The notes below the pieces were generated by a model that had not been told where the DNA came from, did not search any database, and saw nothing but the letters and a program-made list of their open reading frames with translations. 64,000 bases of DNA from Cellulomonas sp. ES6 (GTDB lineage Bacteria; Actinomycetota; Actinomycetes; Actinomycetales; Cellulomonadaceae), in the NCBI RefSeq assembly GCF_030053835.1, contig NZ_CP125655.1, forward strand, positions 1,302,001 through 1,366,000, read 5' to 3'. This document shows, one piece after another, positions 29,076 to 60,559 of the stretch; positions within the stretch are counted from its first letter, which is position 1; every line of letters starts with the position of its first letter. Position numbers and translations under genes: made by a program.

Positions 29076-29092
29076 TTTGTCCTAATTTGCCC
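29076..29092. promoter_or_regulatory. Glycan-locus motif, site 1
   Basis: On the minus strand CAAATTAGGACAAA, a match to the shared core AAATCGGACA. It overlaps the predicted -10 of the acyltransferase promoter, which would suit a repressor. Confidence 0.5.
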
Positions 29093-29252
29093 AGGAGGTT
29101 TCGCCTTCAACGGACCCGGTCGGGCAGGACCCGGTTCACCAGCCCGGCCCGCCGGGCCCGCCGACGGCGTGCACCCACCCGCGCCGCACCCGCCCCCGGG
29201 CCCGCCCGGGACAGCACCGGCCACCCCTGCCGCCGACCCACCGGGAGACGAC

Positions 29253-30917
29253 ATGACGGGAACCGCACCCGCGCCCGGCGCGCCACCGGCGGCACCCCCG
29301 GCCCCCGCCGGTCCGGCACCGGCCGCGCCCGACGGCGCCGCCACGCTGCTGCCCGTGCTGTGGAGCCTCAACGGCCTGCGGGCCGTCGGCGCGCTGCTCG
29401 TGATGCTGTACCACATCAACTCCTGGAACCTGCAGGTGGTGCGCGGCTCCAGCGCCGGGTTCACGGGGGTCGGGCTGTTCTTCGTCCTGTCCGGGTTCGT
29501 CCTGACGTGGACCGCCCGGCCCGGCACCACCGTCGGCACGTTCTACCGCCGGCGGCTCGCGCGCATCCTCCCGAACCACGTCGTCACCTGGCTGCTCGGC
29601 CTCGCGATCGCCGTGGTCCTGCTGGAGCAGGTGCTCGACCCCACCACCGCGCTGGTCGGCCTGCTGCTGCTGCAGGCCTGGTCGCCGGACGCCCAACTCG
29701 TCTTCGCGGTCAACGGCGTCACGTGGTCGCTGTCGTGCGAGATCGCGTTCTACGTGGCGTTCCCGCTGCTGCTGTGGGGCCTGCGGCGCCTGCGCCCCCG
29801 CACCCGCACGGCCGTCGCGGTCGGCGCGCTGGCCGTCCCCCCGCTCGTGGGCGTGCTGTGGCCCGCGACGATCCCGCTGCTGTTCCACCTGCCGCCGGCG
29901 CGGCTCCCGGAGTTCGTGCTCGGCATGGTCACCGCGATGGCGGTGCAGGAGGGGTGGCGGCCCCGGGTACCCGCACCGGTGCTGCTCGGCCTGCTCGCCG
30001 TGGGCATCCTCGGCGCGGCCGCCGTCACCGTGCACCCCACGGTGCTGACCGCCGCGCTCGCCGTCGTCTTCGCGCCGCTGGCCGCCCGCTGCGCGTGGGG
30101 CGACATCCACGGCGGCAACCGCTGGGCGCGGCACCCCGCTGTCGTCGTCGCGGGGGCGCTGTCGTTCTCCTTCTACCTGCTGCACGAGCTCGTCATCAAG
30201 ATGGTGCTCGTGACCCCGCTGCGCGGGCCTGGGACGATCCCGCTGGTGCTCGTCGTGTCCGCCGCGCTGGCGTTCGGCCTGTACCGCGGCGTCGAGATCC
30301 CCGTGCGCGCCCGGCTGCTCGCCGGCTCGCGGCAGCCGCGGCCCTCGCTCGCCGAGCTCGGCGCCGCCGCCCACTCGCCCGCGGAGCGTCGCCCGCGGCA
30401 CTCGCGCCCCCGCTCCGCGGCGTGGTCGTTCCCCGTGCCCGCCACGGCAGGTCCGGCGGTCGCGCTCGCCGTCGCGGCACCGCCCGCGGGCGCTGCGGCG
30501 CTCGGCTCGGCGGTCGGCCACGGCGCAGGGGGCTCGTCGGTCGGCCTTGCCGCACCGGGCTCGGCCGTCGGACCCACCGCACCGGGCCCGGCCGCCCCGG
30601 GTCCGGACACCGGTCCGGCCGCCACCTCGGCGACCCTCGGCGGGTTCGGGACGCCCGCAGCGCCGGGTGGGTCCACCGCACCGGCGGCACCGGCCGCGTC
30701 CATCCCCCCGGTCCCCTCCGCCGACGACGCCCGGTGGGCGGGCCCCCCGTCGCCCGGCGCACCCGGCTGGCGCCCTCCCGCCGCGCCGCGCACGCCTCCG
30801 CCCGTGCCGGTGCGCGTGCGGCCGTGGGCACCGCCGCCGCCCCCCGGCCCGGTGTCGTCTCCCGGTTCCGCCGCGTCGACGGGCGCCGCCCCGGCCGACG
30901 ACGCGCCCCTGCTCTGA
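29253..30917 (+). CDS. Acyltransferase 3 family membrane protein
   Basis: Integral membrane O-acyltransferase of 554 residues. LNGLRAVGALLVMLYHI carries the conserved R and H of the family; GLFFVLSGFVLTWTA, FYRRRLARILPNHVV and WSLSCEIAFYVAFPLL follow as expected. About ten hydrophobic segments end near residue 365. Such enzymes acetylate or otherwise acylate cell-surface sugars. The last roughly 175 residues are a low-complexity Ala/Pro/Gly tail, unusual for the family. ATG with GGGAG upstream; a GTG at 29169 would add a further low-complexity stretch. Confidence 0.88.
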   Translation: MTGTAPAPGAPPAAPPAPAGPAPAAPDGAATLLPVLWSLNGLRAVGALLVMLYHINSWNLQVVRGSSAGFTGVGLFFVLSGFVLTWTARPGTTVGTFYRRRLARILPNHVVTWLLGLAIAVVLLEQVLDPTTALVGLLLLQAWSPDAQLVFAVNGVTWSLSCEIAFYVAFPLLLWGLRRLRPRTRTAVAVGALAVPPLVGVLWPATIPLLFHLPPARLPEFVLGMVTAMAVQEGWRPRVPAPVLLGLLAVGILGAAAVTVHPTVLTAALAVVFAPLAARCAWGDIHGGNRWARHPAVVVAGALSFSFYLLHELVIKMVLVTPLRGPGTIPLVLVVSAALAFGLYRGVEIPVRARLLAGSRQPRPSLAELGAAAHSPAERRPRHSRPRSAAWSFPVPATAGPAVALAVAAPPAGAAALGSAVGHGAGGSSVGLAAPGSAVGPTAPGPAAPGPDTGPAATSATLGGFGTPAAPGGSTAPAAPAASIPPVPSADDARWAGPPSPGAPGWRPPAAPRTPPPVPVRVRPWAPPPPPGPVSSPGSAASTGAAPADDAPLL

Positions 30918-30974
30918 CGGGCGCACCCGGCGGGGTCGTCCCGCTGCGGGGCTCGCCGGGACGGGCGGCGCGCG

Positions 30975-32206
30975 TCAGGACGCCGTGCGGTCCGGCAGCG
31001 CGGCCGGGGCAGCGCGCCCGCCGCGTCCGCGGCCCCAGAAGTCGCCCGCCGTCCCGCGGGGCCCGCGGGCGGGGACGACCGGCACGACCCGCGGGACGAC
31101 CGGCCCCGGCCGGGCCTCCTCGGCGCGGGCCGGGGGCGCGTGACCAGGGCGACCGGGGACGCCGCCCGGGGCGCACCGGCGCCGCCGGGCACGTCGCCGG
31201 CGGCGGACCGCGGCGCGACACGGTCGGGCGCACGCCGCAGCCGCAGCAGCGCCGTCGCGCGGGCGCGGGCCGCGCGGGCGGGCAGCAGGCGCTCAGCCGG
31301 CGCACGCCGGGCGGTGAGCAGCAGCACCGCGAGGCCGTGCCGCACGACGGCGACCACCGCGGGGAGCAGCGCGGGTGCGCCGCGGCCGAGGTGCCGCGCC
31401 ACGTAGGCGTCGACCCGGCCGCGGGTCCGGGCACGGGCCGCGACCGACCGCCGGCCCGCGCGGGCGGGGTCGCGTGCGAGGAGCACCGGCTGCCCGGCGA
31501 CCGGCGCCTCGCGGAAGCCCGCCCCCACGGCGTCGCGGCGGAACACGACGGCCGCGCCCTCCTCGTCCGCCCGCAGCCCCTCGTCGAACCCGACCGACTC
31601 CAGCACCGCCCGCGTCGCCGCGCCGGCGGCGGCCGGCCAGGCACCCGGCGGCGGCGGGTCGGCCACCACGCCCAGCAGGCGGTCCGCGCGCGCGGCGGAC
31701 GGCGCGCGACCCGGGGGGTGGACGGCGCCCGCGACGAGGTCGGCCCGCCCGGCGCGCAGCGGCGCCGTCAGCGCGGACACCCAGGCGGCGGGGACCCGCA
31801 CCTCCGCCAACGTGAAGAGCAGGTACCGCCCCCGGGAGGCCGCGACGCCGAGGTTGCGGGCCCGCGCGGGCCCCACGCCGGGCGCGGCGACGACCCGGAC
31901 CCGACGGTCCATGCCCAGGCCCGGCGGCAGCGCGGCGACGTCCCCGACGACCAGCACGACCTCGCCGCCGAGGCGGTGGCCCCGCAGCCGCACCGCGGGC
32001 GCGACCGCACCGGCGCCTGCGGATCCGTCGGGTCCGCGGGCCGCGACGTCGAGCGACGCGAGCACGCCCCGCAGCGTCTCCGGGAGACCCGGCTCCGCGC
32101 CGCGGGCCACGACCACCACGGAGACGTCGACGCGCCCCGGCACGGCTTCGGGCACGCTCACCTCCGGCGGCACGGCTCCCGGCACGGGCACCGGGGATGG
32201 GCTCAT
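30975..32206 (-). CDS. GT2-like glycosyltransferase, degenerate active site and apparent frameshift
   Basis: GT-A fold family 2 protein: VDVSVVVVARG at the N-terminus and GPARARNLGVAASRGRYLLF, but the acidic metal-binding motif expected next is replaced by TLAE (about residues 130-133). The reading frame is good to about 31137; beyond that the frame with coding-like third positions is the one ending PAALPDRTAS at the stop 30975-30977, reached if one base is added in the run of five G at 31132-31136. Without it the frame runs on to 30173, antisense to the acyltransferase gene. Start ATG 32204-32206; a GTG further in, after GGAGG, is possible. It looks like a decaying paralogue of the next gene upstream. 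Confidence 0.6.
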
Positions 32207-32241: not shown

Positions 32242-33381
32242 TCACTCGTCCGGGTGGCGCTCCCGCGTCCCGGACGGCTCCGGTGCAGCCGCGGCGCCCG
32301 GGCCGCCGGTGCCACCCGGAGCATCGGGGCCACCCGGGCCGTCAGTGCCAGCCAGGCCGTCCGGGCCACCCCGGCCGTCGGCCGCGAGCCCCGCGACCTC
32401 CGCGGGCGGGAACGGCTCGGGGTCCGGCAGCCCGCCGAGCGCGTACCCGAGCCCGAACCCCGTCGACCAGGACAGGCGCGCCACGTCGCCCCTCGACCGC
32501 ACGCGCGCGAGCTCCCCCGCGACCGTCCCGGCGCGGCGCGCGACGCGGACCGGCCTGCTGCGCAGCAGCTGCCGCCGGGGCGCCGGGACGACCGGCGCGG
32601 TGACGTCCGCCGGCGGCGCGGGCTCGTGGTGCACCGCGAGCGCCTCGCGGACGTCGCCGTAGCGCGCCGCCAGCCAGCGCTGCCCCATGCCGCTGTGCCG
32701 GCCCTGGTCCCAGGTGTCGCGCAGCCCGTGCCGCAGCCGCATGTGCACGACCGCCGCCGGCTCGAACTCCAGCCGGCTGCCGGCGAGCTGCGCCCGCCAG
32801 CACAGGTCGGTGTCCTGCAGCCACCGCGCGCGGGGGTCGAAGCGCCCGATGCGGTGGAACAGCTCGCGGCCGATGCCGAGGTTGCTCGCCGCCGCGCACG
32901 GGAGCCACGGCAGCGGCTCGGTGTACTGGAGCCCCTCGACCTGCGGCAGGGCGCGCGACCGGCGGGCCGACCGGTCGTTGAGGCGGTGCCACTCGAGGCG
33001 CCCGGCGACCACGCCCGTGCGGTCGACCGCGGCGCCGAGGGCGTCGATCCACCCGGGGGCGACGACGTCGTCCGCGTCGCAGAACAGCAGCGTGCCGCCG
33101 CGCGCCACCTCGGCCGCCGCGTTGCGCGCCGCTCCCGCGCCCGGCGTCCCGGAGGCGTCCACGAGGCGTGCCTGCGGCAGCCAGGAGCGTGCGTCCTCGA
33201 CGACGTCGCGGGTGCCGTCGGTGGAGCCGTTGTCGGCCACGATGACCTCCCAGGACCGCTCGGCGCGCTGGGCCGCGAGGGCGCGGAGCTGGTCCGGGAG
33301 GGTGGCGGCGGCGTCGCGCGCGGCGATCACCACGGAGACGGTGACGGGGTCGGGATCGGCGTGGCGGTCGGACGCGCGCAT
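32242..33381 (-). CDS. Glycosyltransferase family 2
   Basis: A 379-residue GT-A glycosyltransferase acting on the cytoplasmic side. VTVSVVIAARDAAATLPDQLRAL opens the nucleotide-binding half, SWEVIVADNGSTDGTRDVV and GTLLFCDADDVVAPGW supply the acidic residues, and WLQDTDLCWRAQLAG fits the catalytic region. The last 70 residues are low-complexity. ATG with GAGGGGGA upstream. One copy of the shared motif lies 12-35 bp upstream of the start. It heads a two-gene unit with the degenerate GT2 gene. Confidence 0.9.
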   Translation of the reverse strand: MRASDRHADPDPVTVSVVIAARDAAATLPDQLRALAAQRAERSWEVIVADNGSTDGTRDVVEDARSWLPQARLVDASGTPGAGAARNAAAEVARGGTLLFCDADDVVAPGWIDALGAAVDRTGVVAGRLEWHRLNDRSARRSRALPQVEGLQYTEPLPWLPCAAASNLGIGRELFHRIGRFDPRARWLQDTDLCWRAQLAGSRLEFEPAAVVHMRLRHGLRDTWDQGRHSGMGQRWLAARYGDVREALAVHHEPAPPADVTAPVVPAPRRQLLRSRPVRVARRAGTVAGELARVRSRGDVARLSWSTGFGLGYALGGLPDPEPFPPAEVAGLAADGRGGPDGLAGTDGPGGPDAPGGTGGPGAAAAPEPSGTRERHPDE

Positions 33382-33392: not shown

Positions 33393-33416
33393 GGGTCAAA
33401 TCATGACATTTCACCC
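33393..33416. promoter_or_regulatory. Glycan-locus motif, site 2
   Basis: CAAATCATGACATTT within a near-palindrome flanked by GGGT and ACCC, 12 bp from the GT2 start on the minus strand. Confidence 0.5.
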
Positions 33417-34039: not shown

Positions 34040-35185
34040 TCAGGCCTCCTTCCCGCGGGCCGCGCCCGCGCGCTCCGGGTCCCGCGCACCGCCCAGCCGC
34101 GCGGCGATCGCCCCCGGCACGTGCTCCCGGCGCACCAGGTCGCGCCCGGCCTGCGCCCGGTCCAGCCGGTCCGCCGGGTCCGCCACGAGCGCCTGCACGG
34201 CGGCCAGCAGCGCCCGCTCGCCCGGCTCGCCGTCGCCGACCACCACCACCCGGGCCTCGTCGAACAGGTGCGACGCGCCGCGGGAGTCGTTGGTGACGAC
34301 CGCGCAGCCGTGGCCCAGCGCGGCGACCAGCGGGCCGCTCACCGCGAAGGCGCCGCCACCGCCCCACCCGTCGCGCCGCCACCGCACGACGACGGCGGCG
34401 CGCGCGAACGCGGCCCGGACGTCGGCCTCCGGCAGGAACCCCAGCAGCCGGACGCGGTCGGGCACGCCCCGCGCCGCCGCCTCCTGGCGCAGCCGCTCCT
34501 CGGTGGCCGGCGAGGCCGCCCCGACGACGAGCGTCCAGCCGGCGGGCAGGTCCCCCGCCGCCCGGACCAGCGGCAGCACGTCGGCCGCGTCCGCGACGTA
34601 GCCCGGGACGAGCACCTCGGTCCGCCCCTCGACCGGCGCCTCGGCGACGGCACCGACGTGCGGCACGTCCTGCACCGGGCGGGTGAGCCGGTGCGCGTGC
34701 TCGAGGGCCCGGGCGCCGGCCGGCGACAGGCACAGCACCCGCTCCGCGCGCTGCAGCAGGTCCCGCTCCGCCCGCCGCCCGAGCACGGCCGAGAGGGCCG
34801 CGGCGACGCGGCGCCCCCCGCGACGGTCGAGCAGGGTGGTGAAGAAGGCGCCGCCGGAGAGCTCCGGCACGTCGTGCACCATCAGCCAGACGCGCCGCCC
34901 GCGCCGGGCCAGCCACCAGGCCGCCCAGAACTCGGCGAGCCCCCGCCCGGCCTGCTCGACCACGAGGACGTCGGCGGGGTCGCGGCGCGCGAGCCGCCGG
35001 GCGAGCCGCACGGCCAGCACCGCCGACTGCGACGCCCCCGGCTCGGGCGGCAGCTGCTCGACGTCCACCTCCCCGAGCTCCTCCAGCACGGGGCGGAACG
35101 CCTGGGCGTAGGCCGCGACGCCGCTCGGGCTGGGCGGCAGGCGCGTGACGTGCACGAGCCGCAGCCCCGCGGGGGCCGCCGTCAC
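34040..35185 (-). CDS. Glycosyltransferase family 4-like
   Basis: A 381-residue GT-B-fold protein. RLVHVTRLPPSPSGVAAYAQAF fits the acceptor-side Rossmann start, and the C-terminal half contains the donor-side pattern LLGFLPEADVRAAFARAAVVVRW and VAALGHGCAVVTNDSRGASH, in which the usual E-x7-E is not clearly kept. GTG start overlapping the upstream stop by four bases; closely followed by the acyltransferase. Sugar specificity unknown. Confidence 0.82.
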   Translation of the reverse strand: MTAAPAGLRLVHVTRLPPSPSGVAAYAQAFRPVLEELGEVDVEQLPPEPGASQSAVLAVRLARRLARRDPADVLVVEQAGRGLAEFWAAWWLARRGRRVWLMVHDVPELSGGAFFTTLLDRRGGRRVAAALSAVLGRRAERDLLQRAERVLCLSPAGARALEHAHRLTRPVQDVPHVGAVAEAPVEGRTEVLVPGYVADAADVLPLVRAAGDLPAGWTLVVGAASPATEERLRQEAAARGVPDRVRLLGFLPEADVRAAFARAAVVVRWRRDGWGGGGAFAVSGPLVAALGHGCAVVTNDSRGASHLFDEARVVVVGDGEPGERALLAAVQALVADPADRLDRAQAGRDLVRREHVPGAIAARLGGARDPERAGAARGKEA

Positions 35186-36054
35186 CGGGCTCCCCGCGAA
35201 CCGCCGCGGGCCGCGCCGCGCACGCCGTCCCGGACCCCGACGGCGGCGCGCTGGACGCCCTCGACGGCGCCCAGCAGCCGCGTGCGGCGCCGCGGCACGT
35301 CCTGCGTCAGCCGGCCGGTGCGCTCGTCCTCCAGCAGCGAGCCGTACAGGTGCCCGAAGGTGTGCAGCGCGGCGACGGCGAACCCCGCGCGGCCGTCGCG
35401 CCAGACGCCGGAGTAGACGGTGGACCGCAGCAGCTCGCGCAGCAGGGCCACGGGGTCGTCCAACCGGGTGAACCGTCCGGGGTTGTTCGCGGCGTACCGC
35501 AGGATCTTCTCGGTCGTCTGGGCGACGGAGCGGAAGTTCAGGTGGGCGATGGCCGGCACGGACTCCGGCGCGTCGATGCCGCGGCCGTCGAGCACCGGCG
35601 GGACGTGGGCGAGCGCGGGCTCGGCGTAGTGCGCCCGCCCGCGCCGCAGCAGGGCGAACTTGGCGCTCCCTCGCAGCGAGTGCTCCAGCAGCCGGCCGAA
35701 CGCCACGTTGTCGTACCGCAGGCGCACGCCGGCGACGTCGTCGGGACCGTCGAGCACGGGCTGCAGGGCCGCGCGGAACCCCGCCGGGAGGTGCTCGTCC
35801 GCGTCCACGAACAGCACCCAGTCGCTGGTCGCCGCGTCGAGCCCGAGCTGGCGCACCTGCTCCACGACGGGCGCGTCCGGGACCGGCACCAGGCGCGCCC
35901 CGTGCTCCGCGGCGACCGCGGAGGTGTCGTCGCGCGACCCCATGTCGCAGACGAGCACCTCGTCGAAGCCGGCCAGCCGCGGCAGGCAGTCGCGCAGCAG
36001 GTCGGCCTCGTCTCGGGAGTACACGACGGCGCTCACGGTGCCCGGGGAGGTCAT
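35182..36054 (-). CDS. Glycosyltransferase family 2 (WaaE-like)
   Basis: A 290-residue GT2 protein. SAVVYSRDEADLLRDCLPRL, EVLVCDMGSRDDTSAVAAEHG and SDWVLFVDADEHLPAGF are the GT-A motifs; the pattern of residues after the DADE motif resembles the WaaE/KdtX-type subgroup. No good ribosome-binding site precedes the ATG, and a TACGCT element eight bases upstream could be a -10 for a leaderless transcript. First gene of a three-gene unit with the GT4 and hexapeptide acyltransferase genes. Confidence 0.88.
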   Translation of the reverse strand: MTSPGTVSAVVYSRDEADLLRDCLPRLAGFDEVLVCDMGSRDDTSAVAAEHGARLVPVPDAPVVEQVRQLGLDAATSDWVLFVDADEHLPAGFRAALQPVLDGPDDVAGVRLRYDNVAFGRLLEHSLRGSAKFALLRRGRAHYAEPALAHVPPVLDGRGIDAPESVPAIAHLNFRSVAQTTEKILRYAANNPGRFTRLDDPVALLRELLRSTVYSGVWRDGRAGFAVAALHTFGHLYGSLLEDERTGRLTQDVPRRRTRLLGAVEGVQRAAVGVRDGVRGAARGGSRGAR

Positions 36055-36100: not shown

Positions 36101-36125
36101 GGGTGAATTCCGGCGAAAGCGGACA
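36101..36125. promoter_or_regulatory. Glycan-locus motif, site 3
   Basis: GGGTGA followed by GAAAGCGGACAT, in the divergent gap between the GT2 unit and the LhgO-GT4 unit; a TAGCCT box lies 20 bp further toward LhgO. Confidence 0.5.
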
Positions 36126-36231
36126 TAGCGGGCATCGCGGACGGCTAGCCTCGCGGTGCGGACAGGGGGTCCGCCCACCGCCCGGTCGCGGCGGCCAGCG
36201 GCCCGACGGGGCCACCCGGAAGGAGCACGGC

Positions 36232-38786: not shown

Positions 38787-39626
38787 TCAGCGCATCATGT
38801 CGCGCATCATCGCCCGCACGGGCGGGTACTCGGAGAGCAGCTCCCCCGCGGTGCGCGTGCGGTAGCCGTCCGCCGCGATCCGCCGCAGCAGCGCGTCGAG
38901 CACGGCGGCGCGGTCGTGGCGGGGCAGCTCCGACGGGTCGGACGCGGTCTCCGGGTCGGCCCGGGTGTCGTGCATGAGCACGAGCGCCCCGGGGTGCAGC
39001 GAGGCGTACGCCCGGCGCACCATCTCGTCCTGCTCGCCGTGGTACCAGTCCTCCACGGAGGACGACCACAGCACCACCCGCAGGCCCTGGCGCGCCCACC
39101 CGCGGCGCTGCCGCACGGTGTGCGAGCCGTACGGGGGCCGGAACAGGTGGATCGGCCGCCCGGCGATCTGCTCGACGACGGCGCGCGACTCCGCCACCAC
39201 GCGCATGGACTCCTCGTACGGCACCTGCGCGAGCCGGCGGCGGTGGTCGCGGCTGTGCAGCGCGAGCTCGTGCCCCTCGGCGACGATGCGCCGCACGAGG
39301 TCGGGGTGCTGCTCCGCGGCCTCGCTGAGGACGAAGAACGTGGCGTGCGCGCCGCGCTCGCCCAGCACGTCGAGCAGGCGCGGCGTGTGGTGCGGGTCGG
39401 GGCCGTCGTCGAACGTCAGCGCCACCACCCGGTCGAGCGTCTCGACGCCGACGAGCGCCGCGAGCGGCTGCAGGACGGGCCGCGCCAGCTCGACGACCGC
39501 GCGCCGGGGCAGCGGCCGCGGCGCGGGGTCCCCGAACTCCCCCATGTCGCGGCGCAGCACGACGCGCCCCCGACCGGGGTGCAGCCGCGGGGCGGACTGC
39601 TCGCGGGGGACGAGAGGTGTCGGCAT
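38787..39626 (-). CDS. Polysaccharide deacetylase family protein
   Basis: A 279-residue NodB-homology (CE4) protein that removes N- or O-acetyl groups from polysaccharide. Motif 1 is ALTFDDGPDPHHTP (catalytic Asp at about 73, metal Asp at 74), motif 2 ELALHSRDHRRR supplies the two His ligands, motif 3 is LFRPPYGSHT, and motif 5 is ALVLMHDT. No signal peptide is visible, so it may act inside the cell on precursors or be exported otherwise. ATG with GGAGG five bases upstream; one shared motif lies 111-134 bp upstream. Confidence 0.92.
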   Translation of the reverse strand: MPTPLVPREQSAPRLHPGRGRVVLRRDMGEFGDPAPRPLPRRAVVELARPVLQPLAALVGVETLDRVVALTFDDGPDPHHTPRLLDVLGERGAHATFFVLSEAAEQHPDLVRRIVAEGHELALHSRDHRRRLAQVPYEESMRVVAESRAVVEQIAGRPIHLFRPPYGSHTVRQRRGWARQGLRVVLWSSSVEDWYHGEQDEMVRRAYASLHPGALVLMHDTRADPETASDPSELPRHDRAAVLDALLRRIAADGYRTRTAGELLSEYPPVRAMMRDMMR

Positions 39627-39736
39627 GGGGGCCTCCTGCGCGGCGGGCCGGGCCGGGTGGCGCCGGGCGGCGCGCTCACGGTGCGTCGGCGGGGTGGGCT
39701 GGCCGGGCCAGTCTGCCCGCCTGGGGGCGCCCTGGA

Positions 39737-39760
39737 TGTCCGATTTGCGGCTTTTCACCC
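39737..39760. promoter_or_regulatory. Glycan-locus motif, site 4
   Basis: On the minus strand GGGTGA, eight bases, then AAATCGGACA, a perfect core. It lies between the GMC oxidoreductase stop and the deacetylase start, so it serves the deacetylase. Confidence 0.6.
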
Positions 39761-41455: not shown

Positions 41456-41667
41456 CGCCCCTCCCCCGGGTCCGTCCGCTCGCTCCTCGGGCGGACGGGG
41501 AAGTCCTACACCCTCCGCGGGTCCGCGCGGGAGGGGTGTCCGGGTGAGAACCGGGCGACCGAGCGGGACCAAGGCCCCACGGGCCGCCGCGGGGCGCCTC
41601 GTACGGTGCCCGCAGGCAGCCAGCCGCATGCCTCTCATCCGACGACGGATCGACCTCGAGGACAGAC

Positions 41668-41988: not shown

Positions 41989-42908
41989 GGCCCCGCCAGA
42001 CCCGGCGACCGGCGGCAGGAGCCGGCGCAGGGCTGCTCGTGGTCGCCCTCCTCGTCGGCTGCGGTGCGAGCGACCGAGCCGCCCCGACGCCGACGACGGC
42101 GCCCGGTCTCGACCTCGGCGCGACGCTCGACAGCGCGAGCGGTGCCGTGACGCTGCCGTTCGAGCGGTTCATCGCGTCCGGCGAGGAGGAGGCCCTGTTC
42201 GACGCCGCCCGGGAAGCGCTCGTCGCCCGGTGCGCCCAGGAGCTCGGGGTCCCGTACTACGGCATCGAGCACTCCTACCCCGAGGAGTACCGCTCGGACA
42301 TGGCCTGGGGTCCGTGGACCGTCGACCAGGCCGAGCGGTTCGCGAACACGCTGCCGCTGACGCCCGCGGACCAGGTCGCGAACGGGCTGGTGCCGGCGGG
42401 ATCCGCCGCCGCAGACCGCTACCACCCGAACTTCGAGCTGACCGACGACCAGCGCGCCGCGGTGGAGTCGTCCTGCACCGACTCGGAGGACTACCGCTAC
42501 TTCGAGCAGGTCGGCGTCGGCGACGGCCCCTGGGACGAGCAGATCGCGCCGATCTGGAACTCCCTCCCGGACCGCGACGACGTGCAGACGCTGCTCGGCG
42601 AGCTCGGCGCCTGCTACCGGGCGGCGGGCCTCCAGCCCGTGACGGGGCAGCCCTGGCTCGTGACCGCCGGGTCCTGGGAGATCAGCGAGGAGCAGGTCAC
42701 CATCGCCCTGCAGATCGTCACGTGCAAGGACGAGGTCGACTTCACCCGGCGGATCGCCGGCATCGAGGCGGGCCTGCAGGCCGCGGTCGTCCTGGAGCAC
42801 GCCGACGAGCTGGTGGCACAGCGCGCCGAGCTCGACGCGGCGGTGCAGCGCGCGCGGGAGGTGCTCGCCGAGAACGCCGACGTCATCCACCACGGTGCCG
42901 GGTCGTGA
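41985..42908 (+). CDS. Lipoprotein of unknown function
   Basis: A 307-residue lipoprotein: lipobox LLVGC at about residue 26, then a Thr/Pro-rich linker and a helical domain containing spaced cysteines (ALVARCAQELGVPYYGIEH, ESSCTDSEDYRYFE, LGELGACYRAAGLQP, ALQIVTCKDEVDF). I know no function. GTG start overlapping the small-protein stop, and its own stop overlaps the next gene (GTGA at both junctions), so it is tightly coupled within the operon. Confidence 0.85.
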   Translation: MRPRQTRRPAAGAGAGLLVVALLVGCGASDRAAPTPTTAPGLDLGATLDSASGAVTLPFERFIASGEEEALFDAAREALVARCAQELGVPYYGIEHSYPEEYRSDMAWGPWTVDQAERFANTLPLTPADQVANGLVPAGSAAADRYHPNFELTDDQRAAVESSCTDSEDYRYFEQVGVGDGPWDEQIAPIWNSLPDRDDVQTLLGELGACYRAAGLQPVTGQPWLVTAGSWEISEEQVTIALQIVTCKDEVDFTRRIAGIEAGLQAAVVLEHADELVAQRAELDAAVQRAREVLAENADVIHHGAGS

Positions 42909-44197
42909 CTCCCCGGGCCGGACGAGCCGGGGCGGCAGGTCGACGCCGGGGTCGCTGGATCGCCGTCTGGGCCGGCGCCGCGGCAGGTGCGGTCGTCCTG
43001 GCGTTCGCCGCGGGCGCACTCGTCCGCTCCCCCTGGGACGACGCCGTCGACGCGGGGGCGACGCGCCCGGAGGTCACCGCCGTCGTCGAGCACCGGTCGC
43101 TGGTCCTCGACACAGCGGCGACACGGGGCGAGGTCCGGCTGGGCACCGACGTCGTCGTCCCGGCGCCGGCCGCGGAGCCGGTGGCCATGGTGACCGCGGT
43201 GCGGGTCGAGCCGGGGCAGCGGGTCGACGCCGGCGCCGCCCTCGCTGACGTCGCGGGCCGGCCCGTCATCGCGTGGACGCTGCCGTTCGGCCCCTACCGG
43301 GACCTCGTCCCCGGGGACGAGGGTCCCGACGTCCGTGAGATCCAGACCGCGCTGACCCGCTCGGGTCACTACGGCGGTGCCGTCGACGGCGTCTACGGCA
43401 CCGCGACCGCCCGGGCCGTGGACGCGCTGTACGCCGCGGTCGGGGCAGAACCGCCTCCGCCGGAAGCGGACGCGGTCGAGGCGGCGGCGCGGACTCAGGA
43501 CCAGGTGCGGGCGGCGACGGAGGCCCTCGCCGCTGCCCGCGCCGAGGACGGGTCGCCCACCGCGGGGACGACGCAGGCGGCGCAGGACCTCGACCGCGCC
43601 CGCCGAGAGGCTGCCGCAGCGGTGCTCGCGGCATCGACGCCGCTGCCGCGCGGGGAGATCGCCCTGGTGCCCGAGAGCGGGGCCGTCGTGACGCAGATCG
43701 CCGCGCTCGGCACCGACCTCTCGGACGGCGGGGTCCCGCTCGCGACGCTCCGTGCGGGCGTCCCGCAGGTCCTGGCGCGCGTGGGGGTCACGAACGCGTC
43801 CGCCTTCAGCGTCGGGACCGAGGTGGAGGTGCGCGGCGTCGACGGCACGGCCCGCGCCGTCGCGACCGTGAGCGCCGTCTCGGAGTTCCGGGCCACCGCG
43901 ACGGACGCCGGGCAGGCACCGGGATACGACCTCCAGCTCGAGCTGGACGCAGCCCACTCGTTCGCCCACGAGGACGACGTGCTGCTGGTGCCCCTCGAGG
44001 GCACGCCGGCGCTGGAGGGCCTCGCAGTCCCGCTCACCGCGATCCGCGACGACGAGCACGGCGCCTACGTCCTCGTCAGCGGAGGGGCTGCTCCGCGGAA
44101 GGTCGAGGTGGACGTGGAGGGCACCGCGCAGGGATGGGCCGTCGTCTCGGGCCGGGACCTCGAGGTCGGCGACCTCGTCGTGGTGCAGATCGGATGA
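42905..44197 (+). CDS. Peptidoglycan-binding periplasmic adaptor (HlyD/MacA-like)
   Basis: A 430-residue membrane-anchored adaptor. One transmembrane helix near residue 20-40, a biotinyl-lipoyl-like region with AMVTAVRVEPGQRVDAGAA, an inserted peptidoglycan-binding domain (VPGDEGPDVREIQTALTRSG and GGAVDGVYGTATARAVDALY, about residues 137-180), an alpha-helical section, and beta-rich domains toward the end. MacA-like adaptors link a MacB-type transporter to the wall. GTG start overlapping the upstream stop. Confidence 0.85.
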   Translation: MTPRAGRAGAAGRRRGRWIAVWAGAAAGAVVLAFAAGALVRSPWDDAVDAGATRPEVTAVVEHRSLVLDTAATRGEVRLGTDVVVPAPAAEPVAMVTAVRVEPGQRVDAGAALADVAGRPVIAWTLPFGPYRDLVPGDEGPDVREIQTALTRSGHYGGAVDGVYGTATARAVDALYAAVGAEPPPPEADAVEAAARTQDQVRAATEALAAARAEDGSPTAGTTQAAQDLDRARREAAAAVLAASTPLPRGEIALVPESGAVVTQIAALGTDLSDGGVPLATLRAGVPQVLARVGVTNASAFSVGTEVEVRGVDGTARAVATVSAVSEFRATATDAGQAPGYDLQLELDAAHSFAHEDDVLLVPLEGTPALEGLAVPLTAIRDDEHGAYVLVSGGAAPRKVEVDVEGTAQGWAVVSGRDLEVGDLVVVQIG

Positions 44198-44886
44198 CCG
44201 TCGTCGAGCTCGACGGGGTGACCAAGTCCTACCCCGGGCGCGAACCGGTCCCCGTGCTGCGGGACGTGGGGCTCTCGGTGCGGGCCGGGGAGCGCCTCGC
44301 GGTGGTCGGGCGGTCCGGCGCGGGGAAGTCGACGCTCCTCAACCTGCTGGGTCTGCTCGACGTGCCCACCTCCGGCCGGTACCGGCTGCTCGGGTCCGAC
44401 ACGTCACGGCTCCGCCGCGGCGACCGCGACCGGCTGCGGTCGGGCACCATCGGCTTCGTCTTCCAGGAGCACCACGTCCTCGGGCACCGGACGGTGGGCG
44501 AGAACGTCGACCTCGCGCTCGCAGCGTCCGGCGTGCCGCACCGGGACCGGCCGACCCTGGTCGACGCAGCGCTCCGGCGGGTCGGCCTCGGGGCGCACGT
44601 CCAGGCGCGCAGCGGGCTGCTCTCCGGGGGCGAGAAGCAGCGGCTCGCCGTCGCCCGGGCGGTCGTCACCCGACCGAGGCTGCTGCTCGCGGACGAGCCG
44701 ACCGGGAACCTCGACGACGAGAACGCCGCCGACGTCCTGCGGCTGTTCCGCGAGCAGGCCGACGACGGCGTGGCGGTCGTCGTCATCACGCACTCCGCCC
44801 GGGTCGCCGCCTGGGCCCACCGTGTGCTGGAGGTCGCCGACGGCCGGCTGCGCGCGACGGCACCGCCCGCCGGAGCCCGTCCATGA
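44194..44886 (+). CDS. ABC transporter ATP-binding protein (MacB/LolD-type)
   Basis: A 230-residue ATPase: Walker A GRSGAGKSTLL, Q-loop FVFQEHHVLGHRT, signature LLSGGEKQRLAVARA and Walker B LLLADEPTGNLD, all typical of the MacB/LolD group that drives mechanotransmission. The ATG overlaps the adaptor stop (ATGA), and its stop overlaps the permease start. Confidence 0.92.
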   Translation: MTVVELDGVTKSYPGREPVPVLRDVGLSVRAGERLAVVGRSGAGKSTLLNLLGLLDVPTSGRYRLLGSDTSRLRRGDRDRLRSGTIGFVFQEHHVLGHRTVGENVDLALAASGVPHRDRPTLVDAALRRVGLGAHVQARSGLLSGGEKQRLAVARAVVTRPRLLLADEPTGNLDDENAADVLRLFREQADDGVAVVVITHSARVAAWAHRVLEVADGRLRATAPPAGARP

Positions 44887-46097
44887 GTCGTCTCGTCCGG
44901 GGCGGTCGCGTGACGTGGACGCGCGACGTGCTGCGCGACGTCCTCGTGGAGATGGGTGCGCGCCGCTCGCGATCGGTCCTGGCCGTGGTCGCCGTCGCTC
45001 TCAGCGTCGGTGCCCTGCTCGCCTCGGTGGGGCTGTCGCGCGCCGCGGCGCGCCAGGTCGACGCCGACCTCGCCGCCGCGACGCTCGACATGGTCACGGT
45101 CACGGTCGCCCACGCGTCGGGGACCGACGCGGAGGGGACGACGTTCCCCTCCGACGCGCCCGCCCGGGTGACGGCCCTGGCGCCCGTCGTCGGGGCGGGC
45201 CTGCGGATCGACGTGTCGCCTCTGCGCGCGACGTCCGTCACACGGGCGCCGGTCGCCGGATCGGACCCGCAGGACGCAGGCCTGCTCGTCTCGGGGATGA
45301 CGTCGGGCTACCTCGAGGCGGCGCAGGCGGACGCCGGGCCGGGTGCGCGGTGGCTGGACCACGAGGAGCCCGTCGTGCTCCTGGGCGTCCGCGCGGCGGC
45401 CGCCCTGCACGTGCCCGTCACCGACGACCCCCGGGGCCTGAGCGTGTGGGTCGACGGACGACGCCATGACGTCGTCGGGTTCCTGGACGAAGGGCGCACG
45501 GACCTGGAGCGCGTCGTGGCGATCCCGTACCGCGGTGCCGTCAGGAGCGTCGGCGGCGACCGGGAGGCGCGGATGCTGATCCGCAGCGTCCCGGGGGCGG
45601 GGGCCGTCGTCGCCGACGTGGTCCGTCTGGCGATCAGACCCGACGCCCCAGCCGCGCTCGCCGCGTCACCGGTGCTCGACACCTCGACCGTCCGTGCCGG
45701 GGTCTCCAGCCGGCTGGGGCGTCTCGTCGGGTGGGTCGGTGCGCTGCTGCTCGCACTGTCCGTGCTGCTCATCTCGGGTTCCATGGCCGTCGGCGTGCTG
45801 ACCCGGACCCCGGAGATCGGCCTGCGGCGCGCGCTCGGCGCCTCGCGCGGCACCGTCGCGGCCGTGTTCCTGGTGGAGGGTGCCGTGACAGGAGCCCTCG
45901 GCGGCCTCACGGGCGCGGCCCTGACCGCGTGGTCGGTCACCGCTGCCGCGGCCGCGAGCGGGTGGACGGCAGGGCTCGACGCGTGGTGGGTCGTCGTCGG
46001 GCCTGCTCTGGGTGCGGCCGTCGGCACCGTCTCCGCGGTCCGCCCTGCGCTGCGGGCGGCCGCGATCGAGCCGGCGCTGGCCGTCCGCTCGTCCTGA
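44883..46097 (+). CDS. ABC transporter permease (MacB/FtsX-type)
   Basis: A 404-residue permease. One N-terminal transmembrane helix, a large extracytoplasmic domain of about 220 residues, then three C-terminal helices and the FtsX-domain pattern GVLTRTPEIGLRRALGASRGTVAAVFLVEGAV split across them. With the preceding ATPase and adaptor it forms a MacAB-like machine; likely substrate by context is the small secreted protein or another envelope peptide. Confidence 0.9.
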   Translation: MSRLVRGGRVTWTRDVLRDVLVEMGARRSRSVLAVVAVALSVGALLASVGLSRAAARQVDADLAAATLDMVTVTVAHASGTDAEGTTFPSDAPARVTALAPVVGAGLRIDVSPLRATSVTRAPVAGSDPQDAGLLVSGMTSGYLEAAQADAGPGARWLDHEEPVVLLGVRAAAALHVPVTDDPRGLSVWVDGRRHDVVGFLDEGRTDLERVVAIPYRGAVRSVGGDREARMLIRSVPGAGAVVADVVRLAIRPDAPAALAASPVLDTSTVRAGVSSRLGRLVGWVGALLLALSVLLISGSMAVGVLTRTPEIGLRRALGASRGTVAAVFLVEGAVTGALGGLTGAALTAWSVTAAAAASGWTAGLDAWWVVVGPALGAAVGTVSAVRPALRAAAIEPALAVRSS

Positions 46098-46136: not shown

Positions 46137-46160
46137 GGGCGAAATGTCCGACTTTCACCC
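46137..46160. promoter_or_regulatory. Glycan-locus motif, site 5
   Basis: AAATGTCCGACTTTCACCC; on the opposite strand GAAAGTCGGACATTTC, a core match, flanked by an inverted GGGYGAAA/TTTCACCC pair. 100 bp upstream of the cytidylyltransferase start; a TAGCCT box lies in between. Confidence 0.6.
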
Positions 46161-46259: not shown

Positions 46260-47084
46260 ATGACCGCAGGCGAGCCCGACCCGGCCGACATCCCGGTGGT
46301 GATCCTCTGCGGCGGCATGGGGACGCGGCTGCGCGAGGCCAGCGAGAAGCTCCCGAAGCCGCTGGTCGACATCGGCGGCCGCCCGATCCTCTGGCACATC
46401 ATGAAGACCTACGGCGAGCACGGGTTCCGCCGCTTCGTGCTGGCGCTCGGCTACAAGAGCGACCTGATCAAGCAGTACTTCCTCGACTACCGGCACCTCA
46501 CGTCGGACTTCACGCTGCACCTCGGCGCGGACGGCGCCGGCTCCGAGCCCGTCTTCCACGGCACCGCCGCGAAGGAGGACTGGGAGATCACGTTCGTCGA
46601 GACCGGCCTGACGACGGCGACCGCCGCCCGCATCCGCCGTGTCGCCGACCACCTCGACGCCCCGCGGTTCGCCCTCACGTACGGCGACGGCATCGGGGAC
46701 GTCGACATCACCGCCGCCCTACGCCACCACGAGGAGCACCGCCTGCTCGGCACGCTCACGGGCGTCCACCCGTCCAGCCGGTACGGCGAGATGCGCGTCG
46801 ACGGCGACACCGTCGTGGAGTTCAACGAGAAGCCGACGCTCGCCGACGGCTGGGTCAACGGCGGGTTCTTCCTGTTCGAGCGGGAGTTCGTCGACAAGTA
46901 CCTCGACGACGACCCGACCGTGATGCTCGAGAGCGCACCGCTGCAGCAGCTCGCCCGCGACCGCCAGCTCTCCGTGTACGAGCACGAGGGCTTCTGGATG
47001 GGCATGGACACGTTCCGTGACTGGACGGAGCTGAACGGACTGTGGGACGCAGGTCGCGCCCCCTGGAAGATCTGGGAGGACTGA
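46260..47084 (+). CDS. rfbF: Sugar-phosphate cytidylyltransferase (RfbF-like)
   Basis: A 274-residue nucleotidyltransferase making a CDP-sugar, probably CDP-glucose from glucose-1-phosphate and CTP. LCGGMGTRLREASEKLPKPLV is the nucleotide-binding start; GGRPILWHIMKTYGEHG, LTYGDGIGDVDI, NGGFFLFEREFVDKYL and EGFWMGMDTFRDWTELNGLW match RfbF. First gene of a four-gene unit for a nucleotide sugar. No RfbG-type 4,6-dehydratase is recognisable by its usual start, so the final sugar is uncertain. Confidence 0.88.
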   Translation: MTAGEPDPADIPVVILCGGMGTRLREASEKLPKPLVDIGGRPILWHIMKTYGEHGFRRFVLALGYKSDLIKQYFLDYRHLTSDFTLHLGADGAGSEPVFHGTAAKEDWEITFVETGLTTATAARIRRVADHLDAPRFALTYGDGIGDVDITAALRHHEEHRLLGTLTGVHPSSRYGEMRVDGDTVVEFNEKPTLADGWVNGGFFLFEREFVDKYLDDDPTVMLESAPLQQLARDRQLSVYEHEGFWMGMDTFRDWTELNGLWDAGRAPWKIWED

Positions 47085-50309: not shown

Positions 50310-50451
50310 GGAACGAGGGGCGGGGGGGCGGGGGCGGGGGCGGGAGGCGGTGAGCCGGGGGGCGGTGAGCGGGGCCGCGAGCGGGGTGCGGGTGCTCGGG
50401 TGGGCGGCGGGTGCGGGTGGGGTGTCACCCGGATGCCAGGCAGTTCACCCG

Positions 50452-50476
50452 GGGTGACGGGACAAATCGGACAAAT
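50452..50476. promoter_or_regulatory. Glycan-locus motif, site 6
   Basis: GGGTGA, then two direct copies of GGACAAAT nine bases apart forming AAATCGGACAAAT, the best match to the shared core. A candidate -10 TAGACT lies at 50484-50489; the next gene starts 82 bp downstream. Confidence 0.65.
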
Positions 50477-50557
50477 GCGCTCATAGACTCGCCAGCACGG
50501 GGGCCCGGGACACCCGCCCCGACCAGTCACCGTCCGACGCCGAGAGAGGGGACCGCT

Positions 50558-51847
50558 GTGCCCGCGACACCCGCGACGCCCGTGTCACCCACCGCGCTGC
50601 GCGCCCGTGCCGTGACGTTCTACCTCCCCCAGTTCCACCCGGTGCCCGAGAACGACGCCTGGTGGGGACCCGGGTTCACGGAGTGGACGAACACGGCGAA
50701 GGCCCGGCCGCTGTTCCGCGGGCACGTCCAGCCGCACCTGCCGGCGGACCTCGGGTTCTACGACCTGCGGATGCCCGAGGCCCGCGAGGCGCAGAGCGAC
50801 CTGGCCCGGCGGTACGGCGTCGAGGCGTTCGTGTACTGGCACTACTGGTTCGGCGGCGGCCGGCGGATCCTCGAGCGCCCGTTCGCCGAGGTGCTCGCGT
50901 CCGGCGCGCCGTCGGTGAAGTTCTGCCTGGCGTGGGCCAACCAGACGTGGAGCGGCATCTGGCACGGCGCCAGCGACCGCATCCTGATGGAGCAGACCTA
51001 CCCCGGGCCGGAGGACGAGCAGCGGCACTTCGACACGCTGCTGCCGGCGTTCCGCGACGAGCGGTACCTGCGGGTGGACGACCGGCCCGTGTTCTACGTG
51101 TTCCGCCCGGAGGAGCTGCCGGACGCCGCGGCGTTCGTCGACCGCTGGCAGGCGATGGCCCGCGCGGCCGGCCTGCCCGGGCTGTACCTGGTGGCGGAGG
51201 TGTCGGACCTGCTGGGCCGCGGCCCGCGCTACACCGACGTGGACGGCGCCGGGTTCGACGCCGGCGTGTACATGCGGATCCCGGCGCGGCAGACGCGGGC
51301 CGACGTGCTGCGGATGCGGGTGGGTCGCAAGCTCGGCCGCCCCGAGGTGTACCCGCACGCCCCCGACTTCCAGCCGGCGCCCGCCGGGCTGTCCGACCGG
51401 CTGCAGCCGTGCGTGTACCCGAACTGGGACAACACGCCGCGCTCCGGTGCGCGCGGGCTGGCGGTCACCGGGTCGACGCCGGAGCTGTTCGCGCACCACG
51501 TCCGGCAGGCCGCCGACTCGCTGCAGGACCGCCGCCCCGCCGAGCGGCTGCTGTGGGTCAAGTCGTGGAACGAGTGGGCGGAGGGCAACTACCTGGAGCC
51601 CGACCTGGAGCACGGCCACGGCTGGCTCGAGGCGCTCCGGAACGGGCTGACCGACCCGGCGGCGGCCGGACGGACCTCGCCCGGGCAGACGGTGCCGACC
51701 GCAGCCCGGGACGGCGGAGCCTCGGAGCCCGCCCGGAGCCCCGAGCCCGCGCGCAGCCCCGAGCCGACCCGCACCCCCGCGCCGGCCGCCGCCTCCCGGC
51801 CGGTCCCGGCCCGTGCCGCCGTCGCGGAGGGGGGCGCGCATGGCTGA
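50558..51847 (+). CDS. WbsX-like (GH99-related) glycan biosynthesis protein
   Basis: A 429-residue protein of the WbsX type: AVTFYLPQFHPVPENDAWWG, FTEWTNTAKARPLF, and YGVEAFVYWHYWFGGGRRILERP are hallmarks; KFCLAWANQTWSG and LLWVKSWNEWAEGNYLEPD fit the catalytic half of the GH99-like barrel. These occur in O-antigen and capsule loci; the reaction is uncertain. The last 60 residues are Pro/Ala-rich. GTG start with GAGAGAGGGG upstream; overlaps the next gene by eight bases. Confidence 0.88.
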   Translation: MPATPATPVSPTALRARAVTFYLPQFHPVPENDAWWGPGFTEWTNTAKARPLFRGHVQPHLPADLGFYDLRMPEAREAQSDLARRYGVEAFVYWHYWFGGGRRILERPFAEVLASGAPSVKFCLAWANQTWSGIWHGASDRILMEQTYPGPEDEQRHFDTLLPAFRDERYLRVDDRPVFYVFRPEELPDAAAFVDRWQAMARAAGLPGLYLVAEVSDLLGRGPRYTDVDGAGFDAGVYMRIPARQTRADVLRMRVGRKLGRPEVYPHAPDFQPAPAGLSDRLQPCVYPNWDNTPRSGARGLAVTGSTPELFAHHVRQAADSLQDRRPAERLLWVKSWNEWAEGNYLEPDLEHGHGWLEALRNGLTDPAAAGRTSPGQTVPTAARDGGASEPARSPEPARSPEPTRTPAPAAASRPVPARAAVAEGGAHG

Positions 51848-58377: not shown

Positions 58378-58414
58378 CCCCGTCCGACCCGCTCCCGCCG
58401 ACCAGGAGGTCGCC

Positions 58415-59302
58415 ATGCCACCCCGGGCCACCGTGGGGATCCCCGTCTACAACGGGGAGAAGTACCTGCCCGCCGCCCTCGACTCCGTGCGCGCGCAGGA
58501 CGAGGAGGACATCGAGATCGTCATCTCCGATAACGCCTCCACCGACGCCACCGAGGAGATCTGCCGCGCGGCGGCCGCCGAGGACCCGCGCATCCGGTAC
58601 GTCCGGCAGGCGGAGAACCGCGGCGGGCGGTGGAACTTCAACCACCTCGTCGAGCTCGCGCGGGCGCCCTACTTCACGTGGGCCGCCGCGGACGACATCC
58701 GGCGCCCCGCCTTCGTGCGCCGGTGCCTGGAGGTGTTCGCCGACTCCGACCCCGCGACGGTGCTCGTCTACCCGCGCACGCAGATCATCGACGCCGGCGG
58801 CCTGGTCACCGAGGACCTCAACGACGCCGACCTGGCCTGCGACGAGCCGACGCCGCACGAGCGGATGGCGCACTTCCTGCGGGCGCAGGCCGCCCACATC
58901 TTCTACGGCCTGCACCGCACCGAGGCCCTGCGCAGCACGCGCGGCATCCGGCCGACGGTCGGCAACGACCTCGTGATCCTCGCGGAGCTGGCGTGCCGCG
59001 GGCCGTTCGCCCTGGTCCCGGAACAGCTGTTCCTGCAGCGCCGGCACGCCGAGCAGTTCTCCGCGCAGGGCCAGGCGCAGATCGCGTGGCACGCCCCGAA
59101 GGCGTCCGTCCGGTTCGCGTTCCCCCACACGAAGGTCAGCGTCGAGCTGGTGCGCGGCGTGCTGTCCTCGCCCCTGGACGCCGCCGAGACGGCCCGATGC
59201 CTGGCGACGATCCCGGTGGCGTGGACGCTGCCGCGCTGGCGCGGGCCCGCCGCGGACGTGTGGGCGGCGCTGGGCCTGCAGCCGCGGAGCTCGCGGCGGT
59301 GA
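58415..59302 (+). CDS. Glycosyltransferase family 2
   Basis: A 295-residue GT-A glycosyltransferase. ATVGIPVYNGEKYLPAALDSV, IEIVISDNASTDATEEI, and TWAAADDIRRPAFVRRCLEV supply the nucleotide and acidic motifs. ATG with AGGAGG upstream. Its stop overlaps the next GT by four bases. Confidence 0.93.
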   Translation: MPPRATVGIPVYNGEKYLPAALDSVRAQDEEDIEIVISDNASTDATEEICRAAAAEDPRIRYVRQAENRGGRWNFNHLVELARAPYFTWAAADDIRRPAFVRRCLEVFADSDPATVLVYPRTQIIDAGGLVTEDLNDADLACDEPTPHERMAHFLRAQAAHIFYGLHRTEALRSTRGIRPTVGNDLVILAELACRGPFALVPEQLFLQRRHAEQFSAQGQAQIAWHAPKASVRFAFPHTKVSVELVRGVLSSPLDAAETARCLATIPVAWTLPRWRGPAADVWAALGLQPRSSRR

Positions 59303-60522
59303 GCGCGGTGGCGGGAGGCGCGACGGCGGACGCGGCTCCGGGTGGCGTCCCGGCCGCCCGGGTCCCGGAGGTGCACGTCCTCACGCCCGGGGACCACTTC
59401 TCGCCCCGGACGGGGTCGGCCATCCCGACGGTCGTCGACGGGCTGTGCGCCGCCCTGCCCGCGGGCACGACCCCGCGCCCGCGCGTCGTGGTCGCCGACG
59501 GCACCTACCCCGACCGCTACCCGAGCGCCGAGGCGGTGGGCTACCCGCAGGCCGCGGCGCGCCGCACGGACCGCTACCTGGACGCCGCCGCGGGACGGCT
59601 CGGCCTCCCCCGGCCGGGCGTCCGCCGGACGCTGCGCCCGACCCTCGCGGCGCAGGACGACTGGGACCCCGGCGTGGTGCTCGCGCACAACGCGCCGCAG
59701 CTCGTGCCGCTGGTGCACGAGCGGCACGCGGCCGTGCTGTACGCGCACAACCTGCTGCTGCGCACGTACTCCCCGCGCGAGGCGGACCGGGTGCTCGGGC
59801 GCGCGGCGGCGATCGTCTGCGTCAGCGCCGCGCTCGCCGAGCAGACCGCGGCGCACCTGCCCGCGCGGCTGCGCGACCGGCTGCGGGTGGTGCCCAACGG
59901 GGTCGACACCGCACGGTTCGCCCCGCGGGCCGACCCCGCGCGCGGCGAGCGGCTGCGCGTGCTGTTCGTCGGCCGGATGATCCCCGACAAGGGCGCGGAC
60001 GTGCTGGTCTCCGCGGTCGAGCGCCTCGGCCGGGACGACGTGGCGCTGACGCTCGTCGGCTCGCAGAACTTCGACGCGGGCGCCCGGCCCTCCCCCTACG
60101 AGCGCGACCTGCGGGAGCGGGCGGCGGCGCTCGGCGACCGGGTCCGGATGCTGCCGTTCACCGCGCGGGCCGAGGTCGCGGAGCTCTACCGGCAGGCCGA
60201 CGTCGTGGTGGTCCCCTCGCGGTGGGCGGAGCCGTTCGCGCTCACCGTCATGGAGGGCATGGCCTCGGGCGTGCCCGTGGTGGCGTCGGCGGCCGGCGGG
60301 ATCCCGGAGGTGCTGGGCGACGCGGGCGTGGCCGTGCGGCCGGACGACCCGGACGACCTCGCGGCGGCGCTCGAGGCGCTGGCCGACGACGAGACGCTGC
60401 GCCGGCAGGTGGGCGCGCGCTGCCGCCGCCGGGCCGAGGCGCGCGACTGGCGCTGGGCCCGCGGCGTGCTCGACGGCGTGCTCGCGGAGGTCGCCGGTGT
60501 TTCACCCACGCCGGTCGGGTGA
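59299..60522 (+). CDS. Glycosyltransferase family 4
   Basis: A 407-residue GT-B glycosyltransferase. EVHVLTPGDHFSPRTGSAIPT opens it; VVPNGVDTARFAPRAD, VLFVGRMIPDKGADVLVSA and PSRWAEPFALTVMEGMASG (E-x7-E) form the donor site. GTG overlapping the GT2 stop. It ends 14 bp before site 7 of the shared motif. Confidence 0.92.
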   Translation: MSAVAGGATADAAPGGVPAARVPEVHVLTPGDHFSPRTGSAIPTVVDGLCAALPAGTTPRPRVVVADGTYPDRYPSAEAVGYPQAAARRTDRYLDAAAGRLGLPRPGVRRTLRPTLAAQDDWDPGVVLAHNAPQLVPLVHERHAAVLYAHNLLLRTYSPREADRVLGRAAAIVCVSAALAEQTAAHLPARLRDRLRVVPNGVDTARFAPRADPARGERLRVLFVGRMIPDKGADVLVSAVERLGRDDVALTLVGSQNFDAGARPSPYERDLRERAAALGDRVRMLPFTARAEVAELYRQADVVVVPSRWAEPFALTVMEGMASGVPVVASAAGGIPEVLGDAGVAVRPDDPDDLAAALEALADDETLRRQVGARCRRRAEARDWRWARGVLDGVLAEVAGVSPTPVG

Positions 60523-60536
60523 ACCTCTTGCACCAA

Positions 60537-60559
60537 TTGTCCGTTTTGTTCCGGTGACC
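60537..60559. promoter_or_regulatory. Glycan-locus motif, site 7
   Basis: TTGTCCGTTTTGTT; on the minus strand AACAAAACGGACAATT, a core match with an approximate direct repeat. 16 bp before the next start. Confidence 0.5.

Follow-up and report, generated by a model that had tools for sequence, protein, structure and literature searches.

Tandem 9-bp repeats before surface-glycan genes of Cellulomonas sp. ES6 as a candidate operator set for a BldC-family regulator

We analysed a window of 64,000 nucleotides from Cellulomonas sp. ES6 (contig NZ_CP125655.1, positions 1,302,001 to 1,366,000; G+C content 75.8%), in which a surface-glycan locus carries a short AT-rich sequence at seven intergenic sites, named here by position as 29076, 33393, 36101, 39737, 46137, 50452 and 60537. 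The original prediction described one motif before every glycan unit. AT-rich sites are present within about 20 bp of all seven positions, but the literal consensus then given, AAA[TG]nCGGACA[AT][AT], matches once, at 46143. The repeating element is a tandem 9-bp direct repeat with the unit WWWWCGGAC, which is a better description than a single core motif; a 9-bp direct repeat had been noted at several sites, and it proves to be their key feature. We propose that these arrays are candidate operators for a BldC-family regulator.

Sites were scored with a tandem model of two WWWWCGGAC units, its consensus taken from PMC5859096, and p values come from shuffles of local composition. Genes were predicted with an in-house script based on composition, which makes their starts and the gaps between them approximate. 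The highest score belongs to four in-phase units, CACCGGAAC AAAACGGAC AATTGGTGC AAGAGGTTC, at 60521..60556 on the minus strand (best pair 19.1, p=0.002), upstream of a GT4-GT2 fusion gene at 60566-62680 (+); compared with relatives' sites, this array reads ACCGGAACA AAACGGACA ATTGGTGCA AGAGGTTCA with a 9-bp period. At 46137..46154 (-), AAGTCGGAC ATTTCGCCC (score 16.2, p=0.002) stand upstream of a nucleotidyltransferase/epimerase unit that begins at 46260 (+). Three units, TGACGGGAC AAATCGGAC AAATGCGCT, occupy 50455..50481 (+; score 15.4, p=0.014) upstream of the WbsX gene (50612-51847) and a GT4/Wzt-type/ABC2-type export unit, with a -10-like TAGACT after the array. Another three, AAAAGCCGC AAATCGGAC ATCCAGGGC, lie at 39729..39755 (-; score 14.7, p=0.002) upstream of a polysaccharide deacetylase gene at 38787-39560 (-). 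The second array of four in-phase units, ATTCCGGCG AAAGCGGAC ATAGCGGGC ATCGCGGAC at 36107..36142 (+; best pair 14.3, p=0.002), sits in the divergent gap between a GT2 gene (35182-36054, -) and a FAD-oxidoreductase/GT4 unit from 36232 (+), as assigned by Pfam.

Two candidate operators are weaker, and in both the second unit overlaps a GGGTGA element. One, AATTAGGAC AAACTGGGT at 29070..29087 (-; score 13.7, gap p=0.082), occupies the gap separating the gene at 25291-28944 (-) from a divergently oriented acyltransferase gene (Pfam PF01757) at 29355-30917 (+). The other, AATCATGAC ATTTCACCC at 33399..33416 (+; score 12.8, gap p=0.17), is 17 bp before a GT2 gene by Pfam (32242-33381, -), and the element that its second unit overlaps is GGGTGAA. 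The CGGACA core is replaced by AGGACA at 29076, by ATGACATTT at 33393 and by CGGACATC at 39737. The claim that a site precedes all glycan units was overstated, as the gap of a GMC-oxidoreductase gene (41456-41667) and those of an ABC/FtsX unit (42039-46097) are without one. Nor is it strictly right that 'mfd' has no site upstream, since the 29076 site shares its divergent gap with that gene.

Tandem scores were computed for the window and for some of the stretches fetched, and the whole genome was covered by pattern searches alone. Across 464 kb (the window plus 20 sampled 20-kb stretches of the same genome), all seven sites rank within the top 20 and sit within 3,973 intergenic bp. The remaining top-20 hits comprise two in the window (7598, intergenic; 58524, coding) and 11 in the sampled 400 kb (four intergenic, seven coding). 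None of 393 column-permuted models placed all seven sites in the top 20 (mean 1.1, maximum 6). When the window's 31 gaps of 30 bp or more are scored one by one, the seven of the glycan set reach 12.8-19.1 and 23 of the 24 others stay at or below 9.0 (Fisher p 3e-6); no site was found by tandem score in convergent window gaps. The sole high-scoring gap outside the glycan set, 7557-7665 (15.6, p=0.038), has no CGGAC core. Its sequence at 7589-7606, TATCTGTACTATACAGCC, is AT-rich and partly palindromic, lies in a divergent gap of the left half, and is perhaps the site of another regulator.

CGGACAWW has four window matches, every one at one of the seven sites, a count unremarkable alone (1.57 expected; 12 of 100 shuffles reach 4). 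CGGACAWWT has 12 matches in the whole genome (4.12 Mb, one contig) against none for the control, and AATCGGACAWW outnumbers its reversed pattern by 32 to 1 in 19 genomes of the genus and by 12 to 1 in 10 genomes of other families. In a core-aligned set of 25 non-redundant sites, merged by similarity from 33 and including four from the window (36101, 46137, 50452 and 60537), extra units appear at +9 (z 7.4) and +18 (z 4.5) relative to shuffled flanks with the core fixed; offset +19 also scores (z 3.6). This set and the site layout took only CGGACAWW outside called genes, which excluded 29076, 33393 and 39737. Also excluded were off-genus loci L009-L011, L028, L029, L031 and L032 (L030 from the 25-site set as well), the duplicate L024, and genus loci L016 and L021, with no gene called around the site.

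This architecture closely resembles that of known BldC operators. BldC is a MerR-like protein made up of a winged helix-turn-helix alone; each protomer binds one 9-bp direct repeat, AATTXXXX(C), in arrays that run in either direction relative to the gene, with two repeats at whiI and four at smeA (PMC5859096). The window unit is close to a letter-for-letter match of the DNA in the BldC-DNA crystal, CAATTCGGACAATTCGGACA (PMC5859096). The AT-rich tetrad and the C-G pair 4-5 bp downstream are present (AAATCGGAC/ATTTCGCCC), and are individually significant at five of the seven window sites. On the scale of the tandem model, six window sites fall between smeA repeats 1-2 (10.1) and natural whiI (17.9), and one lies above both.

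The regulator was predicted to be encoded outside the window, and this now appears likely, with two strong BldC-family proteins encoded elsewhere in the genome at positions 3103447 and 733112 (NCBIfam HTH_BldC, NF033787; 104.8 and 100.9 bits, cut-off 77). Both consist of the winged helix-turn-helix alone, and in an alignment by eye with 6ama/6amk the published DNA-contact residues are nearly complete: Lys26, Arg30, Trp31, His46, Arg47 and Arg48 are retained in both, and in BldC-B the phosphate contact Lys33 is replaced by Gln and the interface residue Ile40 by Val. Every one of the 19 genus genomes has a match above the cut-off, and 18 have two or more. One BldC was seen in 10 of 11 other sampled family members, for which part of the candidates were scored. 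BldC-B may conceivably regulate its own gene, which has an upstream site scoring 11.9; L054-L056 have a similar one, and L065-L067 and L069 carry a different CGGACA element at this position.

The similarity to BldC operators could instead be convergence, the arrays being bound by another protein that recognizes direct repeats, such as a response regulator or an excisionase-like protein, although response-regulator repeats usually lie 10-11 bp apart. Some response regulators do bind direct repeats (PMC5859096), a histidine kinase/LuxR-type regulator pair in this genome (L004) itself has strong sites, and the tandem pattern also turns up in genomes without a strong BldC match (10 matches in 111). 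The CGGAC core, AT-rich tetrad, 9-bp period and variable copy number nevertheless all agree with BldC, two copies of which this genome encodes, and we consider a different repeat-binding regulator unlikely.

A second element accompanies the arrays. GGGTGA, previously reported near the sites, is in all seven glycan gaps and in 3 of the 24 others; GGGTGAA is in six of the seven and in none of the 24. On the minus strand GGGTGAA lies at 33410..33416, 39754..39760, 46154..46160 and 50444..50450, and on the plus strand at 36101..36107 and about 60517-60523; GGGTGAAA lies at 60500..60507 (-; genome 1362500-1362507). GGGTGAAA occurs 22 times genome-wide against two copies of its reversed control, and five of the 22 fall in a region of roughly 44 kb surrounding this locus (binomial p 3e-6). 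By coordinates, six copies are within about 60 bp of BldC-like sites. Such concentration would suit GGGTGAA as the main regulatory signal, with the CGGACA repeats secondary, but its spacing and orientation to the repeats vary, and the other 16 copies of GGGTGAAA, judged by ten genes tested near nine of them, have neighbours of mixed kinds, with a BldC-like score above 11.5 nearby at one of the 16. Two of these 16 are in called genes and at least three resemble rRNA or tRNA by eye. We regard a leading role for GGGTGAA as unlikely.

Two identities for this element were considered. A chemotaxis promoter is not supported for GGGTGAAA, as one of the ten genes near nine of the 16 copies encodes an MCP domain. 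With an approximate query sequence, no BldD orthologue turned up among the 19 genus genomes (best match 31.5 bits); the same query matches 4 of 10 other genomes of the order at 74-80% identity. For this genus, BldD is accordingly rejected as the GGGTGAA factor. Separately, an intergenic GGGTGAA-type cluster like that of the 33393 site lies at about 1992 of L235, beside a gene with a lysylphosphatidylglycerol-synthase membrane domain.

A reading of the motif as part of a promoter, whether a -35-like box or one recognized by an alternative sigma factor, is highly improbable: a -10-like TAGACT or TAGCCT follows the arrays at 50452 and 36101, and a block upstream of whiB-family genes lies just before TTGAC, but arrays run with the gene at two sites (39737, 50452), against it at three (33393, 46137, 60537) and in divergent gaps at two (29076, 36101), at varying distance and with up to four in-phase units. 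Mixed orientation and tandem 9-bp repeats thus support the earlier preference for a regulator-binding site.

Sites are concentrated in the glycan locus, as the original prediction of a single surface-glycan regulon implied, and they also extend beyond it. Own-genome regions outside the window were fetched for CGGACA-type matches, with extra ones chosen by hand (three from 99 and 51 pattern matches, plus two window flanks), so that they show neighbours and not an unbiased enrichment. Immediately right of the window, a site scoring 17.2 precedes the gene for a polyprenyl glycosylphosphotransferase; others precede genes for an acyltransferase (18.9) and a GNAT-domain protein (16.5), and an array with a 9-bp period, ATTCGTACA AATCGGACA TTTCGCCCA, lies beside a DUF4012 gene (L003; 21.7). 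Several repeats lie between a sigma-70 gene, whose best NCBIfam match is FliA_WhiG, under its cut-off, and flgN-flgK. The histidine kinase/LuxR-type pair has sites up to 18.4, and a weak site (12.2) precedes a whiB-family gene. Other scored sites show no such theme, adjoining a MarR-type gene (18.2), a DinB-type gene (13.8) and a LysM-SLT gene (12.5). A glycan-only regulon is ruled out by the strong sites at the fliA-like/flgN gap and the two-component pair, together with the weak one at whiB.

Upstream of the whiB-family gene in L119-L137, a near-invariant GAACGACACGCGTGTAATTC with palindromic GACAC/GTGT stands shortly after a -35-like TTGAC. Between dprA and a XerC-like recombinase gene, AATCGGACATT recurs in three genomes (L008, L015 and L036); in our genome (L008) this site stays below 11.5 on the tandem model and was set aside, although its core recurs at the same gene pair in L015 and L036. 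In a fourth genome, that of the relative L017, the gene after dprA is instead a WhiG sigma gene, over its cut-off, and the core sits between the two.

Conservation, which had been proposed as a test of the motif, holds in the closest species and fades beyond them. The loci closest to the window by WbsX protein belong to a 'Micrococcales' metagenome-assembled genome (99%), Cellulomonas pakistanensis, C. sp. IC4_254 and C. hominis. We tested 25 of 80 WbsX loci, excluding L157, in which the match begins at the contig end. The operator recurs before the WbsX gene in all eight of the closest loci (L149-L156; scores 13.1-15.4, shuffle p 0.005-0.055), which are six records named Cellulomonas, one Cellulosimicrobium cellulans and one metagenome-assembled genome. 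Additionally, L034 has a site like 46137 (at 1350) upstream of its nucleotidyltransferase gene (95% identical), and a second one adjoins its deacetylase gene (57% identical). Over 198 sampled genomes of the order, 87 of which encode BldC, a strict tandem pattern gives 25 matches against 4 for controls. Matches to controls stand at 15:0 in the 87 genomes with BldC and 10:4 in the 111 without (p=0.04), a weak link.

With the repeat structure, the match to published operators, the enrichment, the recurrence in close relatives and two encoded BldC proteins in hand, we consider it likely that the motif is an operator set for a BldC-family regulator, whose binding is predicted here. Several observations weigh against this. 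The weights of the tandem model were chosen after the motif had been seen, and on it some genuine smeA sequences score poorly (repeats 2-3, 4.9; the crystal 18-mer as printed, -3.2); published BldC sites have been called bioinformatically unpredictable, with a loose consensus (PMC6428758). Sites 29076 (p=0.082) and 33393 (p=0.17) are not individually significant against local shuffles, and in the 25-site alignment the unit expected upstream at -9 is weak (z 2.1) against the best offset, -13 (z 3.5). Elsewhere, 6 of 20 fliA-like upstream regions reach p<0.05 (our genome, three of 13 other genus genomes with a match, and L114 and L116 from other families), as do 4 of 27 whiB upstream regions, where an 18-sequence alignment shows a block. 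The operator was not found before the WbsX gene in 17 of the 25 loci tested (scores at or below 10.5), namely four other Cellulomonas (L158, L159, L160, L187), three second copies and ten of other genera. Genomes with a tandem match are 13 of the 87 that encode BldC and 10 of the 111 that do not (p=0.26). Finally, GGGTGAA is not accounted for by BldC.

If BldC does bind, each 9-bp unit, an AT-rich 4 bp followed by CGGAC, would dock one protomer, the wing entering the narrow minor groove of the AT stretch and the recognition helix contacting the GC portion. Protomers on adjacent units would then line up head to tail, bending the DNA close to glycan promoters, in an array that may run with or against the gene. 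The resulting filament would probably repress surface-glycan genes until BldC falls or is displaced. Because Streptomyces BldC represses a subset of its targets (PMC6428758), repression in one growth state is the most likely effect, and a positive effect at some promoters is possible. We infer the binding itself, as well as the signal, the sign of regulation, the paralogue involved and a regulatory link between glycan, flagellar and whiB genes. More speculatively, the duplicated pair might form head-to-tail filaments, possibly mixed, on glycan, flagellar and whiB promoters as a sessile/motile or growth-phase switch, maybe one that predates sporulation control. Cellulomonas are not known to sporulate.

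The sequence evidence suggests that a developmental regulator may control surface sugars, and possibly swimming, in a bacterium where BldD was not found. Outside spore-formers, a role for BldC in entry to stationary phase has merely been suggested (PMC4255298), and a search of the open-licence literature by listings and excerpts found no account of BldC controlling glycan genes in Cellulomonas. The locus offers seven concrete candidate operators, of which five are significant on their own, together with a well-defined target class and two candidate regulators, and so makes such a role directly testable. BldC-like sites here are strong enough to be spotted in sequence, though the 2019 regulon paper held them unpredictable (PMC6428758). 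The predicted operator set fits a known kind, and its target set is unexpected.

The closest parallels are the Streptomyces BldC operators at whiI and smeA-sffA (PDB 6amk, 6ama; PMC5859096), which share the 9-bp direct repeats, the AT-rich tetrad, a CGGAC-like core, two to four units and either orientation. Unlike in that system, the putative targets here are surface-glycan and flagellar genes in a genome of the Cellulomonas clade, which has two BldC paralogues, no BldD found and GGGTGAA beside the sites. In the S. venezuelae regulon, whiB is a direct BldC target (PMC6428758), as the weak BldC-like site before a whiB-family gene may echo; that regulon is described for development, whereas the densest predicted target here is a glycan and export locus. 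In Actinoplanes missouriensis BldC acts in sporangium development, and 22 acyltransferase genes are unchanged in the bldC deletion (PMC11064477), which differs from the arrangement proposed here. BldC is nevertheless networked with FliA-family sigma factors in that species (PMC11064477), and in Cellulomonas sp. ES6 the candidate sites likewise adjoin a FliA-like gene.

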